Source: Chloroflexi bacterium RBG_13_51_36 (GTDB lineage Bacteria; Chloroflexota; Dehalococcoidia; GIF9; AB-539-J10). Taken from it: a stretch of 53,145 nucleotides of DNA. The notes beneath the pieces were generated by a model. The model saw only the letters and a list, made by a program, of their open reading frames with translations, was not told where the DNA came from and searched no databases. The stretch lies in contig MGMS01000002.1 of the NCBI GenBank assembly GCA_001796515.1, positions 1-53,145 of the forward strand, written 5' to 3'. The translations under genes and the position numbers were made by a program. Positions 12,346 through 31,228 of this stretch are shown here, piece after piece; positions within the stretch are counted from its first letter, which is position 1, and each line of letters begins with the position of its first letter.

Positions 12346-12795
12346 ATGAAAAGAGTGTATGTCAAAGAAGAGGCCTGCATCGGTTGCGGACTGTGTCAAG
12401 TTTATTGCCAGCTAGAGCATTCTCAATCTAAGGACCTGATCAAAGCATTTAAAAAGGAGACTCCGCGTCCTTTACCTCGTGTGCATGTCGAGAGAAATGT
12501 AGAAGTTTCTTTTCCGATTCAATGTCGCCACTGCACTGAGCCCTGGTGTGTCTATTCTTGTCTTACAGGTGCGATGCACAAAGAGTCCATAAGTGATGAG
12601 GTTGTGGTCGATATGGAAAAGTGTATTGGCTGCTGGACATGCATAGTAGCCTGCCCTTGCGGGGCGCTTAGTCGCGACCTGGACAGCAAGACTGTTATCA
12701 AATGCGACCTTTGCCCGGGACGGGAGATACCTGCCTGCGTAATTAATTGTCCTAACGAAGCGCTTGTGCTGAGCGCAGATGAGAAAAGGGAATGA
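12346..12795 (+). CDS. 4Fe-4S polyferredoxin, GOGAT-associated
   Basis: 149 aa electron carrier with Cys motifs for several [4Fe-4S] clusters: CIGCGLCQVYC near residue 15, CRHCTEPWCVYSC (about 60), CIGCWTCIVACPCGA (about 93) and CDLC...CVINCP (about 120-137). The layout is that of HycB/DMSO-reductase-like iron-sulfur subunits. First gene of the operon with split glutamate synthase and a FAD oxidoreductase, so it probably relays electrons from the pyridine-nucleotide oxidoreductase to the FMN subunit. Ends one base before hisH. Confidence 0.9.
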   Translation: MKRVYVKEEACIGCGLCQVYCQLEHSQSKDLIKAFKKETPRPLPRVHVERNVEVSFPIQCRHCTEPWCVYSCLTGAMHKESISDEVVVDMEKCIGCWTCIVACPCGALSRDLDSKTVIKCDLCPGREIPACVINCPNEALVLSADEKRE

Positions 12796-12796
12796 C

Positions 12797-13420
12797 ATGG
12801 CCAAAGTTATCAGCATAATCGACTACGGTGCAGGTAATCTGCGCAGCGTCGCTAACGCCATTAAGAAGTTGGGGTACCAACCGATGATAACAAGCGACTC
12901 CCGCGAAGTGCTTGATTCTGCTGCAGTGATCCTCCCTGGTGTTGGCGCTGCTGCCGATACTATTAGTAGCCTGAATAAATTAGGTATGACCGACGTTATT
13001 CGGCAACTGATACAACGACAACGACCATTATTTGCTATTTGCGTGGGACTGCAAATACTGCTTTCAGGAACTGAAGAAGGAGGCTGGTATGAGTGCCTAA
13101 AGGTAATTCCTGGAAAGGTAAAGAAATTGCCTCCCGGATTCAAAATCCCGCACATAGGTTGGAATCAGGTGAAACAGAGAGTTAGCCACTCCATCTTTGA
13201 GGGCATACCAGATGAAGCGAATTTTTACTTCGTTCACAGCTTCTATGCTGAGCCCGAAGATATGTCGGTTGTGGCCGGCACTACAAGCTATGGTGTGTCT
13301 ATGTGCAGTATGGTAATCAAGGATAACCTGATTGCAGCTCAGTTTCACCCTGAGAAAAGTGGTGAGCATGGACTGAGGATGTATGCAAACTTCTTGAAAC
13401 TGGCGTTAAATGGGAGATAA
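12797..13420 (+). CDS. hisH: Imidazole glycerol phosphate synthase glutaminase HisH
   Basis: Class I glutamine amidotransferase that supplies ammonia through the HisF barrel to make IGP and AICAR. 207 aa. Nucleophile Cys in FAICVGLQILL, oxyanion region LPGVGA, and the His-Glu of the triad in QFHPEKSG; the Lys of that motif is the one that contacts HisF Asp98 in the well-studied enzyme. Start at the ATG after AAAAGGGAATGAC. It sits between the polyferredoxin and the FAD oxidoreductase of a glutamate-synthase operon, three genes from a hisF; no other his gene is nearby. Confidence 0.93.
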   Translation: MAKVISIIDYGAGNLRSVANAIKKLGYQPMITSDSREVLDSAAVILPGVGAAADTISSLNKLGMTDVIRQLIQRQRPLFAICVGLQILLSGTEEGGWYECLKVIPGKVKKLPPGFKIPHIGWNQVKQRVSHSIFEGIPDEANFYFVHSFYAEPEDMSVVAGTTSYGVSMCSMVIKDNLIAAQFHPEKSGEHGLRMYANFLKLALNGR

Positions 13421-13423
13421 GAC

Positions 13424-14746
13424 GTGCAAACAAAGTATCTTATTATAGGAAATTCGGCTGGCGGCATTGGGGCTGCCGAAGCCATACGTCAGGTAGACAA
13501 GGAGAGTGCGCTGACCATCGTTTCCGAAGAACCTTATCCAGCCTATTCACGCCCTCTTATCTCAAAATATCTAGCGGGAGAACGAACATTCGAAGAGATA
13601 CTATTCCGTCCCGTCAACTTCTATGAACAGAATAATATTACTCTTCTTCCAGGCAAGAAGGTGACACACCTGGAGCTAGATGCCCAGACTGCGTGGTCGG
13701 AAGATGGCACGCAGATTGCCTGGGACAAGCTCCTGCTCGCCGTAGGAGGCAACCCCATCTTCCCTAAGATTAAAGGAAGTGATAAGAGAGGTGTTTTTAC
13801 CTTCACCAACCTTGATGATGCCAAGGCGGTTGACAGATTCCTGGGCAGCGCCAGAAAGGCAGTGGTCATTGGCGGCGGGCTCATCGGAATTAGCGTAACC
13901 GAAGCCCTGGTGAAGCGAGGATTTGATGTAGTAGTAGTGGAAATGAAACATAGAATATTGAATACCATCCTCGACCAACGGGCATCCTTAATGGCGGAAG
14001 AAGTCCTAAAACAAGCCGGTGTGGAAATCGTTGCAGGTCATACTGTGGTTGAAATCAATGGAAGAGAAACGGCGGAAGGAGTCACCCTGGATAATGGGGA
14101 GACAATGACTTGCGATTTAGTGTTGGTGGCTATCGGAGTGTCACCACGCTCGGAGCTGGCATTAGATACCAAATTAGAAGTGAACAGGGGCATAGTAGTG
14201 GATCGCCATTTAGCTACAAATCACCCTGATGTTTACGCCTGTGGGGATGTGGTTGAAGCATATGATTTTGTGTACGAGGATAACAGACTCATCCCTATTT
14301 GGCCCAACGCCTATATCGGAGGCAGGATCGCCGGATTTAACATGGCTGGCATTCCTACCAAATATCCCGGCGGCACTGCCATGAATTCACTCAACTATTT
14401 TGGAATTGACATCGTGTCGGCAGGAATGCCGACGGCACCTAATAACGATGACTACGAGGTTATGAGCAAGCAAGAGACGAGTACATACCAGAAGGTCATA
14501 TTGAAAGACAACTTCATAGCGGGAATGATATCCGTGGGAAATATTGAGAAATCGGGCATCATTTTCGGTCTCATGAGGGACAAAATCAATGTGGAAAGCT
14601 TCAAGCAATCGCTCCTGGCAGACAATTTCGGGCTGGCCTTTTTCCCCCAGGCGTTGTGGCGAGAGCGGTTGGAAGCACCGCCAGGATTGCTTCTCCAGAG
14701 CGTTCCGTCTATTCAGACTGGAGAGAAAACTTTTGTTGGAGAATAA
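13424..14746 (+). CDS. NAD(P)/FAD-dependent oxidoreductase, NADH-oxidase/NirB-like
   Basis: 440 aa flavoprotein of the pyridine nucleotide-disulfide oxidoreductase class I fold. FAD-binding GNSAGGIGAAEA at residues 8-19, NAD(P)H-binding VVIGGGLIGISVTEA near 146, and the second FAD motif VYACGDVVEA near 270. It has no redox-active Cys pair. GTG start three bases after hisH. In the operon it is the best candidate for the pyridine-nucleotide oxidising partner of the split GOGAT, in place of GltD, handing electrons to the polyferredoxin; that assignment is inferred from position. Confidence 0.85.
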   Translation: MQTKYLIIGNSAGGIGAAEAIRQVDKESALTIVSEEPYPAYSRPLISKYLAGERTFEEILFRPVNFYEQNNITLLPGKKVTHLELDAQTAWSEDGTQIAWDKLLLAVGGNPIFPKIKGSDKRGVFTFTNLDDAKAVDRFLGSARKAVVIGGGLIGISVTEALVKRGFDVVVVEMKHRILNTILDQRASLMAEEVLKQAGVEIVAGHTVVEINGRETAEGVTLDNGETMTCDLVLVAIGVSPRSELALDTKLEVNRGIVVDRHLATNHPDVYACGDVVEAYDFVYEDNRLIPIWPNAYIGGRIAGFNMAGIPTKYPGGTAMNSLNYFGIDIVSAGMPTAPNNDDYEVMSKQETSTYQKVILKDNFIAGMISVGNIEKSGIIFGLMRDKINVESFKQSLLADNFGLAFFPQALWRERLEAPPGLLLQSVPSIQTGEKTFVGE

Positions 14747-14771
14747 CTATCTTGTTGAGTAGGCTAAGCCG

Positions 14772-15947
14772 TTGAAAGAATTAGGCAGGATAAACAACTT
14801 TTATCAAGATGATAAGGTAATGGATGCCTGTTCCATCTTTGGAATGATGGATACTGCTGGGAGGCGGTTTTCAGGTAAGAAGGTAGTAGAAGCTATCGCT
14901 AACATGCATGCTCGGGGCAACGGTCTGGGCGGTGGATTTGCTGTCTATGGCTTATACCCCAAATATGCTAATTGCTACGCCTTCCACTTAATGTATTTGA
15001 GTCGCGCAGGGCAAGCCAGAGTAGAAGACTTCCTCAGGCAAAAATTCCACATGATTTACGCTGAAGAAGTGCCCACTAGGCCGATTCCAGCTATAGTGAA
15101 CCCTCCCTTGGTATGGCGTTATTTCCTCGAAGTGAAAAGCGAGGGAACTTGTGGCCAGCGAGAAGATGACTATATTGTAGATAGAGTTATGGAAATCAAT
15201 ACCAAGATAGAAGGTGCCTTCGTCTTCTCTAGCGGCAAAAATATGGGAGTATTCAAGGGAGTGGGTTATCCCGAGGAGATAGCAGAATATTTCTGTCTGG
15301 AGCAGTATGAAGGTTACCTCTGGACAGCCCACGGCAGGTTTCCAACCAATACTCCTGGCTGGTGGGGTGGAGCACATCCCTTTAATGTCCTGGACTGGAC
15401 TGTAGTTCATAACGGTGAAATCTCATCTTACGGGATAAACCGACGGCATCTGGAGCAATTCGGCTACAACTGCACTATGCAGACCGATACTGAAGTGATA
15501 GCCTATGCCGTTGACCTTCTGATACGCAGACATGGCCTTCCGGTAGAGATGGCCGCTAGGATATTGGCACCTCCCTTTTGGAGTCAGATAGAGCGTTGCT
15601 CCCCAGAAAAGCAAAAAATTCCCCGGACGTTGCGCCAAGTGTATGGCAATCTTCTGTTAAATGGGCCTTTCACTGTGATCATTGCTCATCAGGGGGAGAT
15701 GATTGGCCTTACCGACAGGGTCAGGTTACGTCCTCTGACCGTAGGAGTGGAAGGATCTGTGCTCTACCTTTCTTCGGAAGAATCGGCGATCCGTCTTGTT
15801 TGCCCGGACCTTGACAGAACCTGGATTCCCATAGGTGGTGAGCCTATCATTGGCAGTTTGGAGAGACCATTTGAGCCTGCCGTGACTGCGAGGGGTACAA
15901 GCGACATGGCAATCTCTAATAGAGGATATGCAAAGATTAGCAAGTAG
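14772..15947 (+). CDS. Glutamate synthase, class II glutaminase subunit
   Basis: N-terminal-nucleophile glutaminase domain of GOGAT as a separate protein (archaeal-type split). Cys20 in [11 protein letters not shown] is the expected nucleophile; [11 protein letters not shown] and [10 protein letters not shown] carry the Arg and Asn-Gly of the glutamine site, followed by TDTEV. 391 aa from a TTG start; an ATG at 14820 would start two residues before the Cys (M-D-A-C) and may be the true start. The protein releases ammonia for transfer to the FMN subunit two genes downstream. Confidence 0.88.
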
Positions 15948-15960
15948 AAGGTGTAAGCAA

Positions 15961-16731
15961 ATGTTGACCAAAAGGATTATCCCTTGTCTGGATGTCACTC
16001 AAGGGAGAGTAGTCAAGGGTACTAGCTTCACTCATCTTCGGGATGCTGGCGACCCCGTGGAGCTGGCTGCTTTCTATTACAGAGAAGGCGCTGACGAGCT
16101 GGTCTTTTTAGACATCGGGGCTACTCCGGACGTGCGTGATATCATGATTGACATTGTCGAGCGGGTCTCCGAGCAGATTTTCATTCCCCTCACAGTTGGT
16201 GGAGGTTTGCGCAGCATCGAAGATATGCGACGCATGCTAAAGGCAGGGGCTGACAAAGTATCCATTAATACCGCTGTCGTGCAAAATCCCAAACTCATCA
16301 CTGAAGGGGCAGAGAAATTTGGCAGTCAGTGTATCGTGGTGGCTATTGATGCCAAGCGACTAGAAAGTAGTGATGGTCATAAATGGGAGATCTGCACCCA
16401 CGGGGGACGAAAGTCTGCTGGCATTGATGCCATCGGATGGGCTAAGCAAGCTGCATCTCTGGGGGCTGGAGAACTGCTCGTTACCAGTTGGGATGCTGAT
16501 GGTCAGCGGATTGGATATGACTTGGAATTGACCCGAAGTATCAGCGAAGCAGTAACGGTGCCAGTCATCGCCAGCGGTGGTGCAGGCAATTTGGAGCATC
16601 TCTACGAGGCTTTGACCTTAGGCAAAGCTGATGCTGTCCTCGCGGCTACTATTTTTCACTACCAGATTAATTCCATCAGCGAGGCAAAAGACTACTTAGC
16701 TGCAAGAGGAATACCTATAAGAAAAGGATAA
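15961..16731 (+). CDS. hisF: Imidazole glycerol phosphate synthase cyclase HisF (copy 1)
   Basis: TIM-barrel subunit that uses HisH-derived ammonia to cyclise PRFAR. 256 aa. Catalytic Asp11 (IIPCLDV) and Asp130 (VVAIDAKR) present; ammonia-gate residues Arg5, Glu46, Lys99 kept; HisH-contact Asp98 kept (GADKV). One deviation: WDADGQ where DGT is usual. AAGGTG precedes the ATG. It lies between the glutaminase and FMN subunits of glutamate synthase, and forms the natural partner of the hisH three genes upstream. Confidence 0.94.
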
Positions 16732-16732
16732 G

Positions 16733-18232
16733 ATGAAAACCTATTTGCCGCCAAAATTCATAGCCGAGAGAGACGATTCTCGGTGTATTAGATGCGAGGT
16801 ATGCGTCAACCAATGTACTTTTGATGTTCACTCTTATGATACTGAGGACGACGAAATAAGAAGCCGTGAAGAGAATTGCGTTGGCTGCCACCGTTGCGTC
16901 GTCTTTTGTCCCACCCAGGCTTTGACCGTTAGAAGGAGTCCGCTGGATTACAGAGAGAATTACAACTGGCGCCCTGAGATTATCGAAGATATTATCAAGC
17001 AGTCTGAGACCGGAGGCATGCTTCTCACCGGAATGGGTACTGACAAGTGTTACCCTATCTACTGGGACCATTTGGTCCTCAATGCCAGCCAGGTCACCAA
17101 TCCTTCTATTGATCCTCTCCGCGAACCCATGGAATTGACCACCTACCTGGGGCGGAAGCTTGATAGAGTGGAGTTAGGCTCGGCGGGGCTTAAGACAGAG
17201 TTGGCTCCTCAGGTCAAGCTCGAGCTTCCTGTTATGTTTTCCGCCTTGTCCTATGGCGCAGTGAGTCTGAACGTGCAGGAATCCCTAGCCAGAGCCGCCA
17301 CTGAGATGGGAACTCTGTGGAATACAGGTGAAGGGGGACTTCACCCCAAGCTTTACAGGTATGGAGATAACACCACTGTCCAGGTAGCTTCCGGGCGATT
17401 TGGCGTTCATGCACAATACCTTGATATAGCGAGGGTAGTTGAAATCAAAATTGGGCAGGGAGCTAAGCCCGGCATCGGTGGGCACCTTCCCGGAGAAAAA
17501 GTGAGTGTTGAGGTAGCCAGGATTCGCATGATACCCAGAGGGACTGATGCTTTGTCTCCAGCGCCGCAGCACGACATTTACTCCATTGAAGACCTGGCGC
17601 AGCTTGTCTATGCCTTGAAGGAAGCCACAGACTATGCCAAGCCAGTAGGAGTAAAGATAGCTGCTGTTCACAATTCAGCAGCTATCGCCAGCGGCATGGT
17701 ACGGGCGGGAGCAGACATTATAGTCCTCGATGGCTTGCGAGGCGCCACAGGAGCAACGCCGAAGATCATCCGTGATAACGTCGGCATTCCCATTGAACTG
17801 GCCCTCGCCTCCGTGGATGACCGACTAAGACAAGAGGGCATCCGGAATCAAGCCTCCATCGTCATCGCAGGCGGAATCCGAAACAGCGGCGATGTGGCCA
17901 AAGCTATTGCCTTAGGTGCCGATGCCGTCTACATCGGAACTGCCGCTCTTGTCGCCCTGGGATGCACCATATGTCAACAGTGTCATACCGGCAAATGTGC
18001 CTGGGGCATCTGTACCTCGGATCTCCGGTTAACCAAGAGGGTTAACCCCGACATCGGAGCGAGGCGACTATCCAACCTTCTTCGCGGCTGGAGCCTTGAG
18101 CTTAAAGACATATTGGGCGGAATGGGTATCAACGCTTTGGAAAGCCTTCGTGGCAACCGCCTCCACCTCAGAGGCGTGGGGCTGACTGATACCGAGCTGG
18201 AGATTCTCGGAGTGAGGATGGCAGGGAGGTAG
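16733..18232 (+). CDS. Glutamate synthase, ferredoxin-FMN central subunit
   Basis: Makes glutamate from 2-oxoglutarate and ammonia on FMN. 499 aa: an N-terminal ferredoxin domain with CIRCEVCVNQC and CVGCHRCVVFC (residues 18-60), then the GltB central TIM barrel including GEGGLHPKLYR, GQGAKPGIGGHLPG, VLDGLRGATGATP and IAGGIRNSGD, and the C-terminal cluster-binding CTICQQCHTGKC. One base after hisF and one base before the GXGXG subunit. Homologous to archaeal and Dehalococcoidia stand-alone GltB2 proteins. Confidence 0.94.
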   Translation: MKTYLPPKFIAERDDSRCIRCEVCVNQCTFDVHSYDTEDDEIRSREENCVGCHRCVVFCPTQALTVRRSPLDYRENYNWRPEIIEDIIKQSETGGMLLTGMGTDKCYPIYWDHLVLNASQVTNPSIDPLREPMELTTYLGRKLDRVELGSAGLKTELAPQVKLELPVMFSALSYGAVSLNVQESLARAATEMGTLWNTGEGGLHPKLYRYGDNTTVQVASGRFGVHAQYLDIARVVEIKIGQGAKPGIGGHLPGEKVSVEVARIRMIPRGTDALSPAPQHDIYSIEDLAQLVYALKEATDYAKPVGVKIAAVHNSAAIASGMVRAGADIIVLDGLRGATGATPKIIRDNVGIPIELALASVDDRLRQEGIRNQASIVIAGGIRNSGDVAKAIALGADAVYIGTAALVALGCTICQQCHTGKCAWGICTSDLRLTKRVNPDIGARRLSNLLRGWSLELKDILGGMGINALESLRGNRLHLRGVGLTDTELEILGVRMAGR

Positions 18233-18233
18233 G

Positions 18234-19028
18234 ATGTTCAAAGAAAGACCAAGCGAAATCTCAGTCTCTTCCTTGACTGGAGAAAGTGACATGACAAAAG
18301 TAGATGCCCGGGCTCTCTCCCATCGAGAACTCAATGCTAGACTCAGGGAACTGGTTTCCAGTGGAGTTCAGAGAATCGAGCTACACAACGTCTACGGCCA
18401 GAGATACATTGGCACAGACCTGGACAAGCCAGTCAAGATTGATATATTTGGCACTCCGGGTAATGATCTGGGAGCCTTCATGGATGGTCCCGGAATAACT
18501 GTCCATGGCAATGCCCAGGATGGCTGTGGGAACACCATGGATAATGGAGAAATCGTCATTCATGGTCATGCTGGGGATATCCTTGGACTATCAGCCAGGG
18601 GAGGCAAGATTTTTGTTAAAGAGGATGTTGGTTACCGGGCAGGCATTCACATGAAAGAATACCAAGACAAGAAGCCTACGGTGATCATTGGTGGCACAGC
18701 ACAGGATTTTTTTGGTGAATATATGGCAGGTGGAATTCTAGTACTCCTGGGACTAAACCTCAAAGAAGGAGAGGGACACACGGCAAATTTCATTGGCACT
18801 GGTATGCACGGTGGCGTTATCTATATGAGAGGCGAGGTCCAAGAATTTCAACTGGGCAAAGAGGTAGGTGTCGCTGAATTGAATGAAAACGATTATTTGA
18901 CTCTGGAGAAGCTCATAGGTGAGTTCACTTGTCACTTTGACTGTGCTGCCCAAGAGATATTAAAATGTAGATTTACCAAACTTTTCCCCCTTCACCTTCG
19001 TCCTTATGGCCGACTCTATGCTTACTAA
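18234..19028 (+). CDS. Glutamate synthase GXGXG-domain subunit
   Basis: 264 aa beta-helix domain corresponding to the C-terminal part of bacterial GltB. Gly-rich repeats run from about residue 70 to 190 (GNDLGAFMDGPGITVHGNAQDG, GHAGDILGLSARGGKIFV, GGTAQDFFGEYMAGG). A C-terminal extension of about 60 residues contains CHFDCAAQEIL, a Cys pair. The domain is structural, linking synthase and glutaminase. Starts one base after the FMN subunit; an ATG at 18291 after TGGAGAAAGTGAC is an alternative start. Confidence 0.9.
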   Translation: MFKERPSEISVSSLTGESDMTKVDARALSHRELNARLRELVSSGVQRIELHNVYGQRYIGTDLDKPVKIDIFGTPGNDLGAFMDGPGITVHGNAQDGCGNTMDNGEIVIHGHAGDILGLSARGGKIFVKEDVGYRAGIHMKEYQDKKPTVIIGGTAQDFFGEYMAGGILVLLGLNLKEGEGHTANFIGTGMHGGVIYMRGEVQEFQLGKEVGVAELNENDYLTLEKLIGEFTCHFDCAAQEILKCRFTKLFPLHLRPYGRLYAY

Positions 19029-19057
19029 ACCAAATTAATAAACAAAGGAAGCTAGCT

Positions 19058-19798
19058 TTGCCTAGAGTGTTCATCATAGCCAATGAAATCGAACCAATAA
19101 GAAAACTGAGTGCGGACCTCGCTCAGAGGGGCCTTGATTGCCTGATTGTTCCCGGCAAGGATGGAGCAATCGAACAAATTGCTGGACAATCCTCCGCGGT
19201 GCTGCTGCTAGATGCAAATGAAGCTACAGTTGGTTCAGAGGCATGGGAACTAGTTCAAGGGATGAGGCGAGAGAAGAACATACATCTCATCATTCTAGTA
19301 TCCAGAGACAGACTCAATGGCCTCGGTTCCAGTGACAGTATAGACGACTTCGTGGTCAAACCTTGGGAGGCAAGTGAGGTTGCAGCCAGGATAAAGCGGA
19401 TTCTGAGGCAAAAAGGAGGTATGGATAGCGAAGATATAATTAGATGTGGCGACTTAGTCATAGATTCAGACAAGTGTGAGGTATCGCTTGGTGGCAAACC
19501 AATAATACTGACCTTCAAGGAGTACCAATTACTCAAATTCCTGGCAAGCAATAAAGGAAAAGTCTTTACCCGTGATGTTCTCCTGGATAAAGTTTGGGGC
19601 TGGGACTACTACGGCGGTGACAGAACAGTAGACGTGCACATCAGGAGACTGAGAAGCAAAATCGAAGACTCAACCCATACCTTCATCGACACCGTACGAA
19701 ACATAGGATACAAGTTCAAGGACTTACCAACCTGCGCGAGAGTATCCTCCCAGATTCGAGATGTCACTTTACATAATACAGCAAGCTGGCCTAGCTAA
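19058..19798 (+). CDS. OmpR-family winged-helix response regulator
   Basis: 246 aa. Receiver domain at residues 1-118 and PhoB/OmpR-type DNA-binding domain at about 128-225 (LTFKEYQLLKFLASNKGKVFTR, RTVDVHIRRLRSKIE, IDTVRNIGYKF). The receiver keeps the phospho-acceptor Asp (LLLDANE), the switch Ser (LVSRD) and Lys (VVKPW), but the usual Asp-Asp pair after the first strand reads IIANEIEP, so Mg binding may be changed. TTG start after AAAGGAAG. 29 bases after the GXGXG subunit and probably in the same operon; no histidine kinase is in the window. Confidence 0.88.
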   Translation: MPRVFIIANEIEPIRKLSADLAQRGLDCLIVPGKDGAIEQIAGQSSAVLLLDANEATVGSEAWELVQGMRREKNIHLIILVSRDRLNGLGSSDSIDDFVVKPWEASEVAARIKRILRQKGGMDSEDIIRCGDLVIDSDKCEVSLGGKPIILTFKEYQLLKFLASNKGKVFTRDVLLDKVWGWDYYGGDRTVDVHIRRLRSKIEDSTHTFIDTVRNIGYKFKDLPTCARVSSQIRDVTLHNTASWPS

Positions 19799-22967: not shown

Positions 22968-23106
22968 ATTTTGTAGATATCCTGTAGGTTTTTGAATCGA
23001 TTTGCGATTCCTAAACTCAAAGTCGAAGCGCGAATTCAAGATATTATCCTTTGAGCCACGGTTCATAATACATCAGGTAGCGGAACCACACAAGCTCTTG
23101 TTGTGC

Positions 23107-23136
23107 TTGACAAGCGTGACGTAGTTCTGGTATTGT
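23107..23136 (+). promoter_or_regulatory. nrpR promoter
   Basis: TTGACA (23107-23112), 18-base spacer, TATTGT (23131-23136). It lies inside the longest open frame, which argues that translation starts downstream, at the in-frame GTG at 23178. Confidence 0.6.
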
Positions 23137-23177
23137 GGAAAACAGTTGCCTATTACCTAGAACGCCAGAATACTGCC

Positions 23178-24170
23178 GTGGGTTTCGAAACACAGGACGT
23201 AGAAAGAAAAACAATCGCTATCCTTAGGGTCCTTAGTCAATCCAGTGAGCCTGTTGGTGCTAGAGTCATTTCCCATAATCTTAAGGGGCAGGGCATCGAG
23301 TTAAGCGAACGAGCTGTTAGATACCACCTTAAGCTAATGGATGAACGCGGATTCACGGAGAATGCAGGAAGGGATGGGAGGTTGATTACGCGGCAAGGCC
23401 TCGAAGAACTGCAAAGTGCTTTAGTTAGCGATAAGGTTGGCTTTGTGGCTTCCAGAATTGAGCTTCTAGCCTATCAAACAGACTTCGACATAGACGAGCA
23501 CCGAGGCAAGATCCCCGTCAACGTCTCCTTTTTCCCAGAGAGACAATTCAAGAAGGCTATCGAGGCTATGAAAGGAGCTTTTCAGGCTGGGATTTGCGTC
23601 AGTGAGCTTGTGGCTGTGGCTCACTGCGGTGAGAAATTGGGGGGGTTAATTATGCCCAGGGATAAAATGGGCCTAGCCACCGTTTGCAGCATCGTAGTCA
23701 ACGGTGCATTGCTCAAAGCTGGTGTCCCGATGGACTCCAAATTTGGTGGTATTCTGCAAATCAAGAATCATGAACCCTTGCGATTCGTGGAGCTTATCCA
23801 ATATTCAGGCTCGTCCTTAGATCCGTCAGTTATATACATTACTAGCAAGATGACTAGCGTCGGTCAGGTGGCCAAAAAAGGGGAGGGCAGGATTCTAGCC
23901 AATTTTCGAGAAATACCAGCTATGTGTCAACCCCTGGCGGAAAAGGTCGTTGCCGGATTGAAAGCAGCTAGTCTGGGTGGAGTGCTTGCGATTGGCGAGG
24001 TAAGCAAGTCTTTGTGCGAAGTTCCTGTGGAATTAAACAAGGTCGGCGTGATACTCACTGGTGGGCTTAACCCGGTGGCTGCTGCTGTCGAATGCGGCGT
24101 AGAAGTGGAAAACCGTGCCATGACCACCCTTATGGAATATCGAGACCTGACCAAATTCTGGGACCTATGA
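23178..24170 (+). CDS. nrpR: NrpR-family nitrogen repressor (DUF128)
   Basis: Global nitrogen repressor first known from methanogens; represses nitrogen-assimilation genes and is released by 2-oxoglutarate. N-terminal winged helix (ERKTIAILRVLSQSSEPVGARVI, then ERAVRYHLKLMDERG) followed by one NrpR effector domain with GKIPVNVSFFPE, GVPMDSKFGGILQI and VGVILTGGLNP. Start set at GTG 23178 because the promoter overlaps an upstream GTG (23103). About 330 aa with a single effector domain, unlike the two-domain methanogen form. One base before hisF copy 2. Confidence 0.88.
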   Translation: MGFETQDVERKTIAILRVLSQSSEPVGARVISHNLKGQGIELSERAVRYHLKLMDERGFTENAGRDGRLITRQGLEELQSALVSDKVGFVASRIELLAYQTDFDIDEHRGKIPVNVSFFPERQFKKAIEAMKGAFQAGICVSELVAVAHCGEKLGGLIMPRDKMGLATVCSIVVNGALLKAGVPMDSKFGGILQIKNHEPLRFVELIQYSGSSLDPSVIYITSKMTSVGQVAKKGEGRILANFREIPAMCQPLAEKVVAGLKAASLGGVLAIGEVSKSLCEVPVELNKVGVILTGGLNPVAAAVECGVEVENRAMTTLMEYRDLTKFWDL

Positions 24171-24171
24171 A

Positions 24172-24942
24172 ATGAACGCAGTGAGAGTCATACCATGTTT
24201 GGATGTGAAGGATGGCAGGATAGTCAAGGGAGTCAACTTCGTGAATCTGAAAGATGTCAGGGATCCTGTGGCGGCAGCAGAAGCTTATTGCCGTGAGGGA
24301 GCTGATGAACTGGTATTCCTTGATATCTTCGCCACCCTGGAGAGCAGAAAAACGCGTTTTGAATGGGTGAAAAAGGTCTGTGAGGTAGTTACGGTTCCCT
24401 TCGCCGTGGGAGGTGGTATCGCTACCCTTGAGGACATGCAGACCCTGTTTGACCTGGGCGTAAACAAGGTCTCAGTCAATACCGCAGCTGTAAAGAACCC
24501 TGAGCTTATAGGAGAGGCTTCCGGAAGATTTGGCAGGCAGAAGCTCGTAGTTGCCATAGATGGACGGAAAAATCCGCCTGGAAGCGGCCTTCCGCGATTA
24601 GAGGTGGTAGTCAAGAGTGGCAACGAAGCTACAGGACTAAATATTGTTGAGTGGGCAAAGACGGCGGAGAAACTGGGGGCTGGGGAGATTCTCTTGACCA
24701 GTAAAGATGCGGACGGCACCAAGGCAGGCTATGATTTGGAGATGACCAGAGCCGTGGCTGAAGCAGTGAGCGTTCCAGTCACTGCCTCGGGAGGGGCAGG
24801 CAAGCTTGAGCACCTTTACCAAGCTGTGACGGTTGGTAAGGCATCAGCAGTCCTAGCCGCTTCTATCTTCCATTTCGGCGAAGTATCTATACCCGAGGCA
24901 AAACGATATCTAAAAGGGAAGGGAATACCAATAAGAATATAG
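24172..24942 (+). CDS. HisF-like cyclase (copy 2)
   Basis: 256 aa TIM-barrel close to HisF. Asp11 and Asp130 (VVAIDGRK), gate residues Arg5, Glu46, Lys99 and the DGTKAGYD loop are kept, so cyclase chemistry should be possible. Two changes stand out: the HisH-contact Asp98 is Asn (GVNKV) and the usual GSQ before strand 5 is GRQ. Cotranscribed with nrpR (one base apart) and gdh. It may be the histidine-pathway enzyme using free ammonia, or a paralog with another substrate. Confidence 0.85.
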   Translation: MNAVRVIPCLDVKDGRIVKGVNFVNLKDVRDPVAAAEAYCREGADELVFLDIFATLESRKTRFEWVKKVCEVVTVPFAVGGGIATLEDMQTLFDLGVNKVSVNTAAVKNPELIGEASGRFGRQKLVVAIDGRKNPPGSGLPRLEVVVKSGNEATGLNIVEWAKTAEKLGAGEILLTSKDADGTKAGYDLEMTRAVAEAVSVPVTASGGAGKLEHLYQAVTVGKASAVLAASIFHFGEVSIPEAKRYLKGKGIPIRI

Positions 24943-24965: not shown

Positions 24966-26222
24966 ATGACTACAGATGCAGGCGAGCAAGCGTTCAACAA
25001 TGTCAGGAAATTGATTAATGATATTTGTGAACGGATGAATATCCCTGAGACATGTCGCATAAGATTGATGGAATGTGAGCGGGAGTTTACAGTTCATTTC
25101 CCGGTGAGGATGGATGATGGGAGGGCACAAGTTTTCACCGGCTTCAGGGTTGTTCACAACGATGGTCGGGGGCCCAGCAAGGGCGGGATCCGATACCATC
25201 CCGACGTCAACCTCGACGAAGTCAGAGCCTTAGCGGCCCTGATGAGTCTGAAGACCGCGGTGGTCAATATTCCCTATGGTGGTGCCAAGGGAGCCGTGAT
25301 TTGCAATCCGAAGGCCATGTCCGAAAGCGAGCTTGAGAGGTTAACTCGCCGATACGCTTCCGAAATTGCGATTCTAATGGGTCCCGAAAGGGATATTCCC
25401 GCCCCTGACGTTGGTACCAACCCCCAGGTCATGGCCTGGATCATGGACACTTACAGCATGGGCAAGGGATATTCGGTGCCGGCAGTCGTCACCGGAAAGC
25501 CTCTCGAAATAGGTGGTAGTACCGGGAGGTTCGAAGCCACCGGTCGAGGGTGCATGGTCAGCGTCTTGCTGGCGGCCAAGCGTCTGGGTATAGATCCGCA
25601 AGAAGCAACTGTTGTGGTTCAAGGATGTGGAAATGTCGGGGCCATAACCGCTGATCTTCTGGCGAAGAAAGGTTGTCGCCTAATAGCGATAAGTGACTCT
25701 AGAGGCGGCGCTTATGATCCGGAGGGTTTGAACCTGGCAGACGCGTTCAACCACAAGAAACAGACGGGGTCCGTAATAGGCTCTAGGAATACGGAAAAGG
25801 TCACCAACGCTGAGCTTCTGGAACTGAAGTGTGATATCCTGGTAGTAGCAGCTCTTGAGCGTGCGCTTGTCAAGGCCAACGCCCCCTGCGTAAAGGCGAG
25901 GATAATCGTGGAAGGCGCCAACGCCCCGACTACGCCTGAAGCGGACAAAATCCTTCTTGATAAGGGCATATTCATTGTTCCCGACATACTGGCAAACGCG
26001 GGCGGAGTAGTAGTGTCGTACTTGGAGTGGGTGCAGGGTCTGCAGTCCTTCTACTGGAATGAGGCACAGGTCAACAACTACCTCGACGGCTTGATGACCG
26101 CTGCCTTCGACCAGGTCCTATGCATTGCCGAAGAGAAGAAAGCCGACATGAGAGCAGCAGCTTGTATGATTGCAGTGCAACGATTGGCAGCCGCTATGAC
26201 AACCAGGGGTATATTCCCATAG
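24966..26222 (+). CDS. gdhA: Glu/Leu/Phe/Val dehydrogenase, probable glutamate dehydrogenase
   Basis: 418 aa, hexameric NAD(P)-dependent oxidative deamination. Substrate-binding and catalytic lysines in GPSKGGIRYHP and PYGGAKGAV, catalytic Asp in DIPAPDVGTN, nucleotide-binding VVQGCGNVGA. Near the C-terminus NAGGVVVSYLEWVQ is intact. Length and sequence fit the archaeal/Thermotoga-like GdhA class. GGAGGGAGG lies before the ATG. Third gene of the nrpR operon, linking ammonium directly to glutamate beside the GOGAT route. Confidence 0.92.
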   Translation: MTTDAGEQAFNNVRKLINDICERMNIPETCRIRLMECEREFTVHFPVRMDDGRAQVFTGFRVVHNDGRGPSKGGIRYHPDVNLDEVRALAALMSLKTAVVNIPYGGAKGAVICNPKAMSESELERLTRRYASEIAILMGPERDIPAPDVGTNPQVMAWIMDTYSMGKGYSVPAVVTGKPLEIGGSTGRFEATGRGCMVSVLLAAKRLGIDPQEATVVVQGCGNVGAITADLLAKKGCRLIAISDSRGGAYDPEGLNLADAFNHKKQTGSVIGSRNTEKVTNAELLELKCDILVVAALERALVKANAPCVKARIIVEGANAPTTPEADKILLDKGIFIVPDILANAGGVVVSYLEWVQGLQSFYWNEAQVNNYLDGLMTAAFDQVLCIAEEKKADMRAAACMIAVQRLAAAMTTRGIFP

Positions 26223-28409: not shown

Positions 28410-29522
28410 ATGTCTGCTGAAATCGATGTCGCCATCATCGGCGCTGGAGTGATTGGCTTGGCTACCGCTCGTGAAATCGCACAAAAAAAGAAACAGGCCT
28501 TTGTCTTTGAAAAAACCCGCACTTTTGGGCTCGAGACTAGTAGCAGGAATAGTGAAGTAATTCACGCCGGCATCTACTATCCTGAAGACTCCCTTAAGGC
28601 TAAGCTTTGTGTAGAAGGCAAAGACCTGCTTTATAGGCTTTGCAGCAAGCATAATATCGCCTACAAGAAGTCGAGCAAGATAATCGTGGCAACAGACGAA
28701 GACGAGATTAGCTGGCTCGAAGAGCTTTGCAGGCAAGGAAGAAAAAACGGCGTTGATGACTTGGTGCTCATTTCCCGGATGGAAGTGAAGAGACTCGAGC
28801 CATATGTGGAAGCCAGAGCTGGGCTGCTATCCCCATCTAGTGGAATTCTTGATTCTTACAGTTTGCTGAAGTTCCTTCACAGCCAAGCGAGGGAGAACGG
28901 AGCTCAGTTTGTCTTCGGCACGGAAGTCATCGGGATAGAATGGGCGGGTGGAAAGTACAGAGTCCGCATAAAGGACCGGGACGGGATTTCTGCTTTTGTT
29001 GCCCGTAACGTGGTGAACTGCGCTGGCTTATACTCTGACCACATAGCCCAACTTGCCGGCATAGATACAACTGAAGTAGGCTACAAGCTTCATTACTGCA
29101 AAGGCGAATACTTTAGTCTGGACTCAAAATATAGAAATCTCGTAAGCAGGCTAATCTATCCAGCCCCAGAGCAAGCTGGTCACGGAATTCATTTTAGACA
29201 GGGACTCGATGGCAGAGTGCTACTCGGGCCCAGCGCCTGCTACGTCGAAGAGATAGACTATACAGTCGACGAGACTCATAAGCAATACTTCTACGACTCA
29301 GCTAAGAAATTCCTTCCTTCTGTGGAATTCGGAGATCTAGCTCCCGAATCTGCTGGCATCAGGCCTAAGCTTCAGGGCCCAGGAGACAATTTCCGAGATT
29401 TCATAATTACACATGAAGAGAAGGCGGGCTTCCCTGGCCTCATAAATCTAATCGGGATAGAATCTCCGGGGCTCACTGCCTCCCTTGCGATTGCCAGATA
29501 CGTGGGCAGAATGATGTCATAA
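28410..29522 (+). CDS. lhgO: L-2-hydroxyglutarate oxidase-like FAD protein
   Basis: 370 aa DAO-family flavoprotein. Rossmann motif IIGAGVIGLATAREIA at residues 8-24, the active-site stretch SRNSEVIHAGIYYPEDSLKA near 47, and APESAGIRPKLQGPG plus IGIESPGLTASLAI near the C-terminus, all as in LhgO/YgaF. It would oxidise L-2-hydroxyglutarate to 2-oxoglutarate, the nitrogen-status signal, which suits its position in the nitrogen island. GGAG lies 14 bases before the ATG. Followed 14 bases later by the asparagine-synthetase-like gene. Confidence 0.88.
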   Translation: MSAEIDVAIIGAGVIGLATAREIAQKKKQAFVFEKTRTFGLETSSRNSEVIHAGIYYPEDSLKAKLCVEGKDLLYRLCSKHNIAYKKSSKIIVATDEDEISWLEELCRQGRKNGVDDLVLISRMEVKRLEPYVEARAGLLSPSSGILDSYSLLKFLHSQARENGAQFVFGTEVIGIEWAGGKYRVRIKDRDGISAFVARNVVNCAGLYSDHIAQLAGIDTTEVGYKLHYCKGEYFSLDSKYRNLVSRLIYPAPEQAGHGIHFRQGLDGRVLLGPSACYVEEIDYTVDETHKQYFYDSAKKFLPSVEFGDLAPESAGIRPKLQGPGDNFRDFIITHEEKAGFPGLINLIGIESPGLTASLAIARYVGRMMS

Positions 29523-29536
29523 TTGGAGGCCTTCTT

Positions 29537-31228
29537 ATGAGTTGGATAGGTGGTATCTTCACCAAGGTTAATACGGCCCACAGCGAACTCAGAAAGAAAC
29601 GGGCCGTCATGATGGAGACGGCCTATCCTCCAGGTAAACCCTCGACTGTCGCTTATCATCACTGCATAATCTCCGTCTTCGATGATGCGCACAGGCAGAT
29701 CCTCGCAGAGGTATCTCGCCCTAGCGAAGAAACACCTGCTGAACATGTCTATACAGATCATCAGAAAGGACTGACCTTGATGTACGACGGCCACCTTTAT
29801 GGTTCCGAAGGCCAAATGGCCAAGCTTTCTCCTGCCCGGCACAGAGTGAATGAAACCACTGCCGCATCCTTGGCTCACTGGCTGGCAGAATTTCCCGGCA
29901 ACCTGGAACAGAAGGTCAGGCAAGCACTAGCCGGCCTGGATGGGAATTATGCTCTGGCAATCAGTTATAACGACCAGATGGCCATATCGCGGGATTCTTT
30001 GGGTACCAAGCCACTGTACTTTGCCGAGAATGATGAGCTCTCTGCTTTCGCTTCCAACAAGAAACCTCTGTGGAAGATAGGTATGGACGAAGTCAGGCCC
30101 CTCAGGGCCGGCAGGCTCGCTGTTTTTGACGATGAAGAAATTAGCATAAGGAAGGCTTTGCCTTTCCACAAAAAGGAAATCGAGATAAACAACATGGCTC
30201 AAGCTGTGGACAACTATGAACAGACGCTCCATTCAGCAATGCTCAAAAGATTAGGCACAGCGAACCATGTACGCAGGGTAGGGCTGCTGCTATCCGGTGG
30301 AGTGGATAGTTGTCTGATAGCCAAGCTGGTATGCGACGCAGCTTCTGAATTCGGAATTGAGGCAATCGCATATACGGCTGGCTTACCTGATTCGCCGGAT
30401 GTGAGCTTTGCTCGGGCATTTGCCAGAGAACTTGGCATCAAGCATAGGACGAAGATATTAAACATCGATAGCGTTGAAGAGTATATTCCCAAGGTCATTG
30501 AAGCAATTGAGGACAGTGATTTCGTGCAAGTGGAAACCGGCATCGGCCTCTATGCTGCAATAGACATGGCTAGCCAGGATGGCATTGAGATAGTGTTTTC
30601 TGGGCAAGGGCCCGATGAACTATGGGGAGGTTACAGCTGGTATCCAAACGTTTTAGCCAAAGATGGCCGTCAAGAACTTTGTCGCAGAATGTGGGACGAT
30701 TTCAGCAGGGCAGATATAGAGACATTGGATAGAGAAAACAAGATAGCCATGGGGCACGGAGTTGAACTTCTCTTCCCTTATTTAGACACCGAGGTGGTAA
30801 ATATAGCTATGAGTGTGCCATCTGAATTGAAAGTGATCTGCGGGGAAGACCGCCTGGGAAAACATCCACACCGTCAACTAGCTATCAAAATGGGCATCTC
30901 TGAGAGATATGCCAACAGAGAGAAGCTTGCTATACAGCATGGCACGGCAATTCATGGCGTATTAGACGATATAGCCAGAAGGAATGGATTTGACCCTGAC
31001 TTGGTGAAAAACATCGATTACAGAAGCGAGAAGATTACCACTGCCAAACTGGGTAGTTCTGCCAGGTACGGTTATCGCTACACCGAGAAAAGACTCTGGC
31101 AAGTGCCTCAGCATATACAGCTTTTCTTTCACGTGCTGGCCTATAGGAAAGGCTTGCTCAATAAATCAATTAGAGATAGGGTAGGGTATTTCCTGGAAAA
31201 GGCTGGACATGCCTCCGACAGTAGTTGA
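29537..31228 (+). CDS. Asparagine synthetase-like protein with inactive glutaminase domain
   Basis: 563 aa of AsnB fold. The C-terminal synthetase half is intact: PP-loop LLLSGGVDSCL near residue 250 and VFSGQGPDELWGGY near 353. The N-terminal Ntn-hydrolase half is recognisable but starts M-S-W-I-G-G, so the catalytic Cys2 is Ser (codon AGT), and the glutamine-site NGE is DGH. It should therefore use free ammonia or an ammonia donor protein, or amidate another carboxylate. The start is firm: GGAGG seven bases before the ATG. Cotranscribed with lhgO. Confidence 0.85.
   Translation: MSWIGGIFTKVNTAHSELRKKRAVMMETAYPPGKPSTVAYHHCIISVFDDAHRQILAEVSRPSEETPAEHVYTDHQKGLTLMYDGHLYGSEGQMAKLSPARHRVNETTAASLAHWLAEFPGNLEQKVRQALAGLDGNYALAISYNDQMAISRDSLGTKPLYFAENDELSAFASNKKPLWKIGMDEVRPLRAGRLAVFDDEEISIRKALPFHKKEIEINNMAQAVDNYEQTLHSAMLKRLGTANHVRRVGLLLSGGVDSCLIAKLVCDAASEFGIEAIAYTAGLPDSPDVSFARAFARELGIKHRTKILNIDSVEEYIPKVIEAIEDSDFVQVETGIGLYAAIDMASQDGIEIVFSGQGPDELWGGYSWYPNVLAKDGRQELCRRMWDDFSRADIETLDRENKIAMGHGVELLFPYLDTEVVNIAMSVPSELKVICGEDRLGKHPHRQLAIKMGISERYANREKLAIQHGTAIHGVLDDIARRNGFDPDLVKNIDYRSEKITTAKLGSSARYGYRYTEKRLWQVPQHIQLFFHVLAYRKGLLNKSIRDRVGYFLEKAGHASDSS

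Follow-up and report, generated by a model that had tools for sequence, protein, structure and literature searches.

Asparagine synthetases such as E. coli AsnB and human ASNS have in common with the protein described here a two-domain fold, a PP-loop, K463 (Lys449 of AsnB) and an SGxGxDE motif. This protein, encoded in a window of 53,145 nucleotides (the whole stretch of DNA that was analysed), is however 19-25% identical to these enzymes, lacks their glutaminase residues, and has Glu in place of an Arg and Gln in place of a Glu of the aspartate site. N-acetylglutaminylglutamine amidotransferase (TIGR03104), also of the AsnB type, adds the terminal amide to a compatible solute and represents a functional precedent, although no linkage to a dipeptide synthase was seen for the window family. 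Beta-lactam synthetase and carbapenam synthetase lack the glutaminase Cys. In these two enzymes (1mb9, 1q15), the AsnB fold serves an acid-activating ligase, as it would in the window protein; they form an internal lactam, however, and are 15-18% identical to the window protein, whose sister clade is glutaminase-intact. An AsnB fold devoid of glutaminase function, as in beta-lactam synthetase and CarA, is found in the window protein as well.

Mannosylglyceramide, the product predicted for the window family, is a known solute of Rhodothermus marinus, in which salt shifts the balance from the acid to the neutral amide (PMC1224877). In the literature searched, no gene was named for its formation, no relevant paper was found that connects mannosylglycerate with an asparagine synthetase or another amidotransferase, and no report was found of mannosylglyceramide in Chloroflexota. 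Within the same class, the MgsD / MpgS-MpgP pathway of Dehalococcoides supplies mannosylglycerate, the predicted substrate (PMC13390484, its ref. 64). That pathway stops at the acid, with no amidation step described, whereas amidation is what is predicted for the window family.

The gene and its glutaminase domain

The AsnB-like open reading frame (Table 1) encodes a protein that opens with MSWIGGIF. The firm GGAGG start proposed in the preliminary description was confirmed to the nucleotide, and the Ser in place of Cys2, the DGH in place of NGE and the intact PP-loop that it had noted are all present in the product. In a sequence scan, no ATG, GTG or TTG was found in frame ahead of this ATG as far back as the upstream stop; there is therefore no alternative start that would expose a Cys, and a wrong start was rejected. 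The profile search returned PF00733 (Asn_synthase, 2.5e-40) and PF13537 (GATase_7) and no match to the AsnA family, and the scores for TIGR01536 (173 bits, curated cut-off 267) and TIGR03104 (101 bits, cut-off 570) fell below threshold. When another asnB was sought in the genome to which the window belongs (G000, 1.93 Mb, 91% complete), this gene proved to be the sole Asn_synthase gene above the Pfam cut-off.

Table 1. Coordinates of the features discussed, in the window unless a contig is named
Feature	Position	Strand	Remark
HisH / FAD oxidoreductase / GltB1 / HisF / GltB2 / GltB3 / response regulator operon	12779..19798	+	
Glutamate dehydrogenase (GDH)	24966..26222	+	in nitrogen island
L-2-hydroxyglutarate-oxidase-like FAD oxidoreductase (DAO), LHGO	28410..29522	+	NF008726 246 bits, below cut-off 299
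Ribosome-binding site GGAGG	29525..29529	+	7 nt before ATG; sequence
AsnB-like synthetase with degenerate glutaminase domain, 563 aa	29537..31228	+	clade A
Degenerate N-terminal Ntn (GATase_7) domain, residues 1-205	29537..30151	+	evolves faster than C-domain
Ser2 codon	29540-29542	+	
DGH in place of NGE	29786-29794	+	
ATP-pyrophosphatase synthetase domain, residues 225-555	30209..31201	+	PF00733; AF2 model matches 6gq3/1ct9
PP-loop S-G-G-V-D-S, residues 253-258	30293..30310	+	intact
Family signature Q331-V-E333 at the aspartate site, where AsnB has T-I-R	30527..30535	+	Q331, E333 invariant, 22 members
Q357, replacing Glu of AsnB SGEG	30605..30607	+	
MpgP start, cut off by contig end	G000 contig C10 1-165	-	L111

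When aligned with E. coli AsnB, the glutaminase site of the window protein has C2 replaced by S, N75 by D, E77 by H and D99 by T; R50 corresponds to S or E, the alignment being ambiguous over that stretch. At position 2, the orthologs that share 59-74% identity with the window protein carry T, S or A and in no case Cys, and a sequencing error at Ser2 was rejected on that account. In other Dehalococcoidia, the proteins of clade A start with M-T-W-I-G-G or M-A-W-I-G-G, those of clade B with M-S-Q-L-V-G or M-G-Q-M-A-G, and those of clade C with M-C-P-I-A-G or M-S-P-I-A-G. The clade C copies that retain Cys2 are without the glutamine-binding Arg, the NGE and the Asp in the alignment, and this Cys was therefore not accepted as proof of a glutaminase. 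The Ser2 to which attention had been drawn is thus matched, across the Dehalococcoidia family, by S, T, A or G at position 2 or by a Cys in a ruined site. Judged by these residues, the glutaminase is predicted to be dead throughout the degenerate subfamily, the window protein included. The full site (Cys2, Arg, NGE, Asp) is kept by three relatives, G361, G159 and G173, the first of which passes the TIGR01536 cut-off of 267 with 316 bits.

In a maximum-likelihood tree, clades A, B and C form a single clade with the intact copies (support 100/100), and the intact group is the sister of the degenerate clades (support 100/100). Since this sister group retains the whole glutaminase site, the window enzyme would most likely descend from a glutamine-dependent enzyme, the loss of the glutaminase being derived. 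Divergence between clades has been quicker in the N-domain than in the C-domain (e.g. A-C identity of 33% vs 56%), and dN/dS between the window gene and its closest ortholog (L021) is about 0.25 for the former and about 0.16 for the latter; both domains remain under purifying selection. The degenerate glutaminase domain, together with a deletion relic of the clade-A gene in G019 (99% complete; residues 1-67 and 501-556 left, L113:4981-5319), might be taken to indicate a decaying or non-catalytic protein heading for loss, a fate made highly improbable by the low dN/dS of the synthetase domain and by its intact catalytic motif. Two genomes, G041 and G017, hold a clade-A and a clade-C copy each. 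Nothing further of the family was found in other Chloroflexota classes, and a search of plasmids yielded neither close relatives nor MpgS.

Other AsnB-like proteins devoid of the Cys occur in the same order. Clade D (L032, L033, L035, L036, L037, L040 and L042; 489-494 aa) is a second, separate group of this kind, which starts with M-A-S/A/G-I-A-G and has retained the Glu of SGEG; at L034 and L039, Cys-less copies related to it adjoin a canonical MCGIAG AsnB. The proteins at L043-L049 (e.g. in G028, G033, G020 and G006) consist of a synthetase domain on its own, with a length of about 240-345 aa (LLSGGLDTSILAF) and no glutaminase domain.

Substrate-site residues and the asparagine route

The T-T-I-R motif of E. 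coli AsnB, the Arg of which contacts aspartate, as does the Glu of SGEG, corresponds to V-Q-V-E in the window protein. The counterparts of T-I-R and SGEG are Q-V/I-E and SGQG, respectively, in 22 of 22 family members. As the motif Arg has given way to Glu, and the Glu of SGEG to Gln, in every member, aspartate would be an unlikely substrate of the window protein. The residues Q331, E333, Q357, Y369, H445, Q467 and H468 stay constant across the range that runs from the intact operon copy to the window copy, and AsnB has other residues at these positions. That the enzyme might be ammonia-dependent or amidate another substrate, as had been proposed, is supported by the predicted death of the glutaminase in the subfamily and by aspartate-site residues that are family invariants common to the intact relatives. 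An AF2 model of the window protein (mean pLDDT 77, pTM 0.82) has human ASNS and E. coli AsnB as its best structural matches, followed by beta-lactam synthetase and CarA; its confidence is low at residues 32-69, 92-106 and 506-521, and for that reason no conclusions on the pocket were drawn from it.

GatB was found in all five genomes tested, and no AsnRS above cut-off was found in six genomes tested; asparaginyl-tRNA is presumably made by transamidation (GatCAB). A divergent, ammonia-dependent asparagine synthetase that takes its ammonia from the nitrogen-assimilation island would account for the AsnB fold and PP-loop, for the gene being the only Asn_synthase gene of its genome, and for its site in an island with AmtB, GlnA, GltB and GDH. 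The replacement of both motifs in all 22 members argues against such an enzyme, however, as do the TIGR01536 score under its cut-off, the presumed GatCAB route, and the case of G019, which lost the gene and gained no AsnRS; we regard it as improbable.

Linkage to mannosylglycerate genes

Clade B and C genes adjoin genes for MpgS (mannosyl-3-phosphoglycerate synthase, TIGR02460), for its phosphatase MpgP (TIGR02461), both with matches above the NCBIfam cut-offs, and for a ManC-like nucleotidyltransferase. This linkage is present for clades B and C and for G361, and absent at the window locus. The order MpgS-ManC-ligase-MpgP occurs in G012 and G009, with a degenerate ligase, and in G361, which belongs to a different family and has an intact ligase, with near-identical spacing in all three (genes overlapping by about 1 nt or separated by gaps of 103-118 and 43-58 nt). 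Other layouts are MpgS-ligase-MpgP (L016), ligase-MpgS-SerB-like (L015) and MpgS-ligase (G221), and the ligase and mannosylglycerate genes are convergent or divergent at L010 and L097. The existence of several gene orders suggests that the linkage reflects function and not a single inherited block.

The same operon linkage would be expected of a ligase resembling beta-lactam synthetase, which would activate mannosylglycerate or a related acid and couple it, in place of ammonia, with another amine or an amino acid. AsnB homologs that lack the Cys and use other nucleophiles do exist, and beta-lactam synthetase and CarA come next among the structural matches. However, transfer of ammonia is implied by the G361 copy, a glutaminase-intact sister located in the same operon, and the two forms have the pocket residues in common, so that a nucleophile other than ammonia appears unlikely.

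Among genomes of the order, MpgS was found in 14 of the 17 with the family and in 14 of the 67 without (Fisher p 5e-6); for the class, the corresponding fractions are 10/12 and 34/381 (Fisher p 6e-9), both p-values overstating independence as the genomes are related. The clade-A genomes with MpgS are G084 (one contig), G041, G017, G016, G014 and G001. MpgS was not found in G000 as assembled. In this genome, MpgP is nevertheless present as its first 55 codons, which are 87% identical to those of G001 and break off right where contig C10 ends. The genes inward of them match those beside MpgS in the clade-A genome G016, and two InlB/GLUG-repeat-like open reading frames flank the MpgP start in synteny with the MpgS locus of G016. 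Because MpgS follows MpgP in G001 and MpgP is cut at the contig end, an assembly gap likely explains the missing MpgS, which is presumed to be present in G000, and its simple absence was not accepted. In the case of G019, neither MpgS nor MpgP was found.

Two further kinds of genes were seen in such clusters. A GH38 alpha-mannosidase-like gene, perhaps for mannosylglycerate turnover, adjoins MpgS at L080:4492-7119 and L088:7635-10166, and an OtsA-like trehalose-phosphate synthase gene (identified by eye; L094:1788-3290, G030) lies beside MpgS and MpgP in a combined compatible-solute cluster.

Proposed function and the nitrogen island

The reading favoured here, with a probability of roughly one half, is that the window protein would be an ATP-dependent ligase amidating mannosylglycerate to mannosylglyceramide with free ammonia. 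With the same probability, the family would consist of mannosylglycerate-amide (mannosylglyceramide) synthetases, in a series that runs from glutamine-dependent enzymes of the mannosylglycerate operon to glutaminase-dead, ammonia-dependent ones of the nitrogen island. The carboxylate of 2-O-mannosylglycerate would be adenylated by ATP in the PP-loop domain, and free ammonia would attack the adenylate to yield mannosylglyceramide, a neutral compatible solute, with AMP and PPi. The ancestor, like the present G361 copy, would have obtained ammonia from glutamine in its N-domain within an MpgS-ManC-ligase-MpgP operon; in the window lineage, the glutaminase domain would have been reduced to a structural remnant and the gene relocated to the nitrogen-assimilation island (AmtB, GlnA, glutamate synthase, GDH, NrpR-like).

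This proposal is supported by the mannosylglycerate operons of the relatives, the co-occurrence with MpgS, and the single clade with shared invariants. It also draws support from the MpgP start lying at the end of C10 where G016 has MpgS and from the MpgS of clade-A genomes, as well as from the relic in G019, which lacks MpgS and MpgP, from GatB being found without AsnRS, and from mannosylglyceramide being a real solute. Against it, the window gene does not adjoin mannosylglycerate genes and MpgS was not seen in the G000 assembly; G002 (69% complete), G010 (83% complete) and G065 have the gene with no MpgS seen, and the ligase is missing from many MpgS-carrying genomes. In addition, the intact copies of G159 and G173 immediately follow GltB3 in the glutamate-synthase operon that the window also has, and not in a mannosylglycerate operon, and no report of the amide in Chloroflexota was found. 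If true, the proposal would link a gene to the amidation that yields a known solute, for which no named enzyme was found, add a salt-adaptation step for uncultured Dehalococcoidia, correct a likely misannotation as ‘asparagine synthase’, and provide a clear case of an amidotransferase that lost its glutaminase and kept its ligase.

The island comprises glutamine synthetase and AmtB, a split glutamate synthase accompanied by HisH and HisF, an NrpR-like regulator and GDH, as well as a second GltB2-like gene, the LHGO-like gene and, after it, the ligase gene. The fixed location of the latter beside the GDH, GltB2-like and LHGO genes, and the joint presence of clade-A and clade-C copies in G041 and G017, might suggest that clade A was repurposed after leaving the mannosylglycerate operon and acts on an acid of nitrogen metabolism, e.g. 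a glutamate or 2-oxoglutarate derivative. Such a change of substrate is nonetheless unlikely in view of the unchanged pocket invariants, the high rate of MpgS in clade-A genomes, and the decay of the gene in G019, where the mannosylglycerate genes are absent. The coupling to LHGO claimed in the preliminary description holds locally, the LHGO-like gene ending 14 nt upstream of the AsnB-like ATG, but does not extend to a stable partnership across relatives. LHGO was rejected as a functional partner because the two genes are decoupled both ways: an intact LHGO gene adjoins the ligase relic in G019, and the AsnB-like genes of G002 and G014 have no LHGO neighbour.

Two HisF-like genes are present in the window, at 15928-16731 and 24172-24942. 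The first lies between the GltB1 and GltB2 genes of the split glutamate-synthase operon, an arrangement conserved at L125 and partly at L126, and an NrpR-type nitrogen repressor gene (NRD1_2 plus winged helix; 23103-24170) adjoins HisF and GDH.
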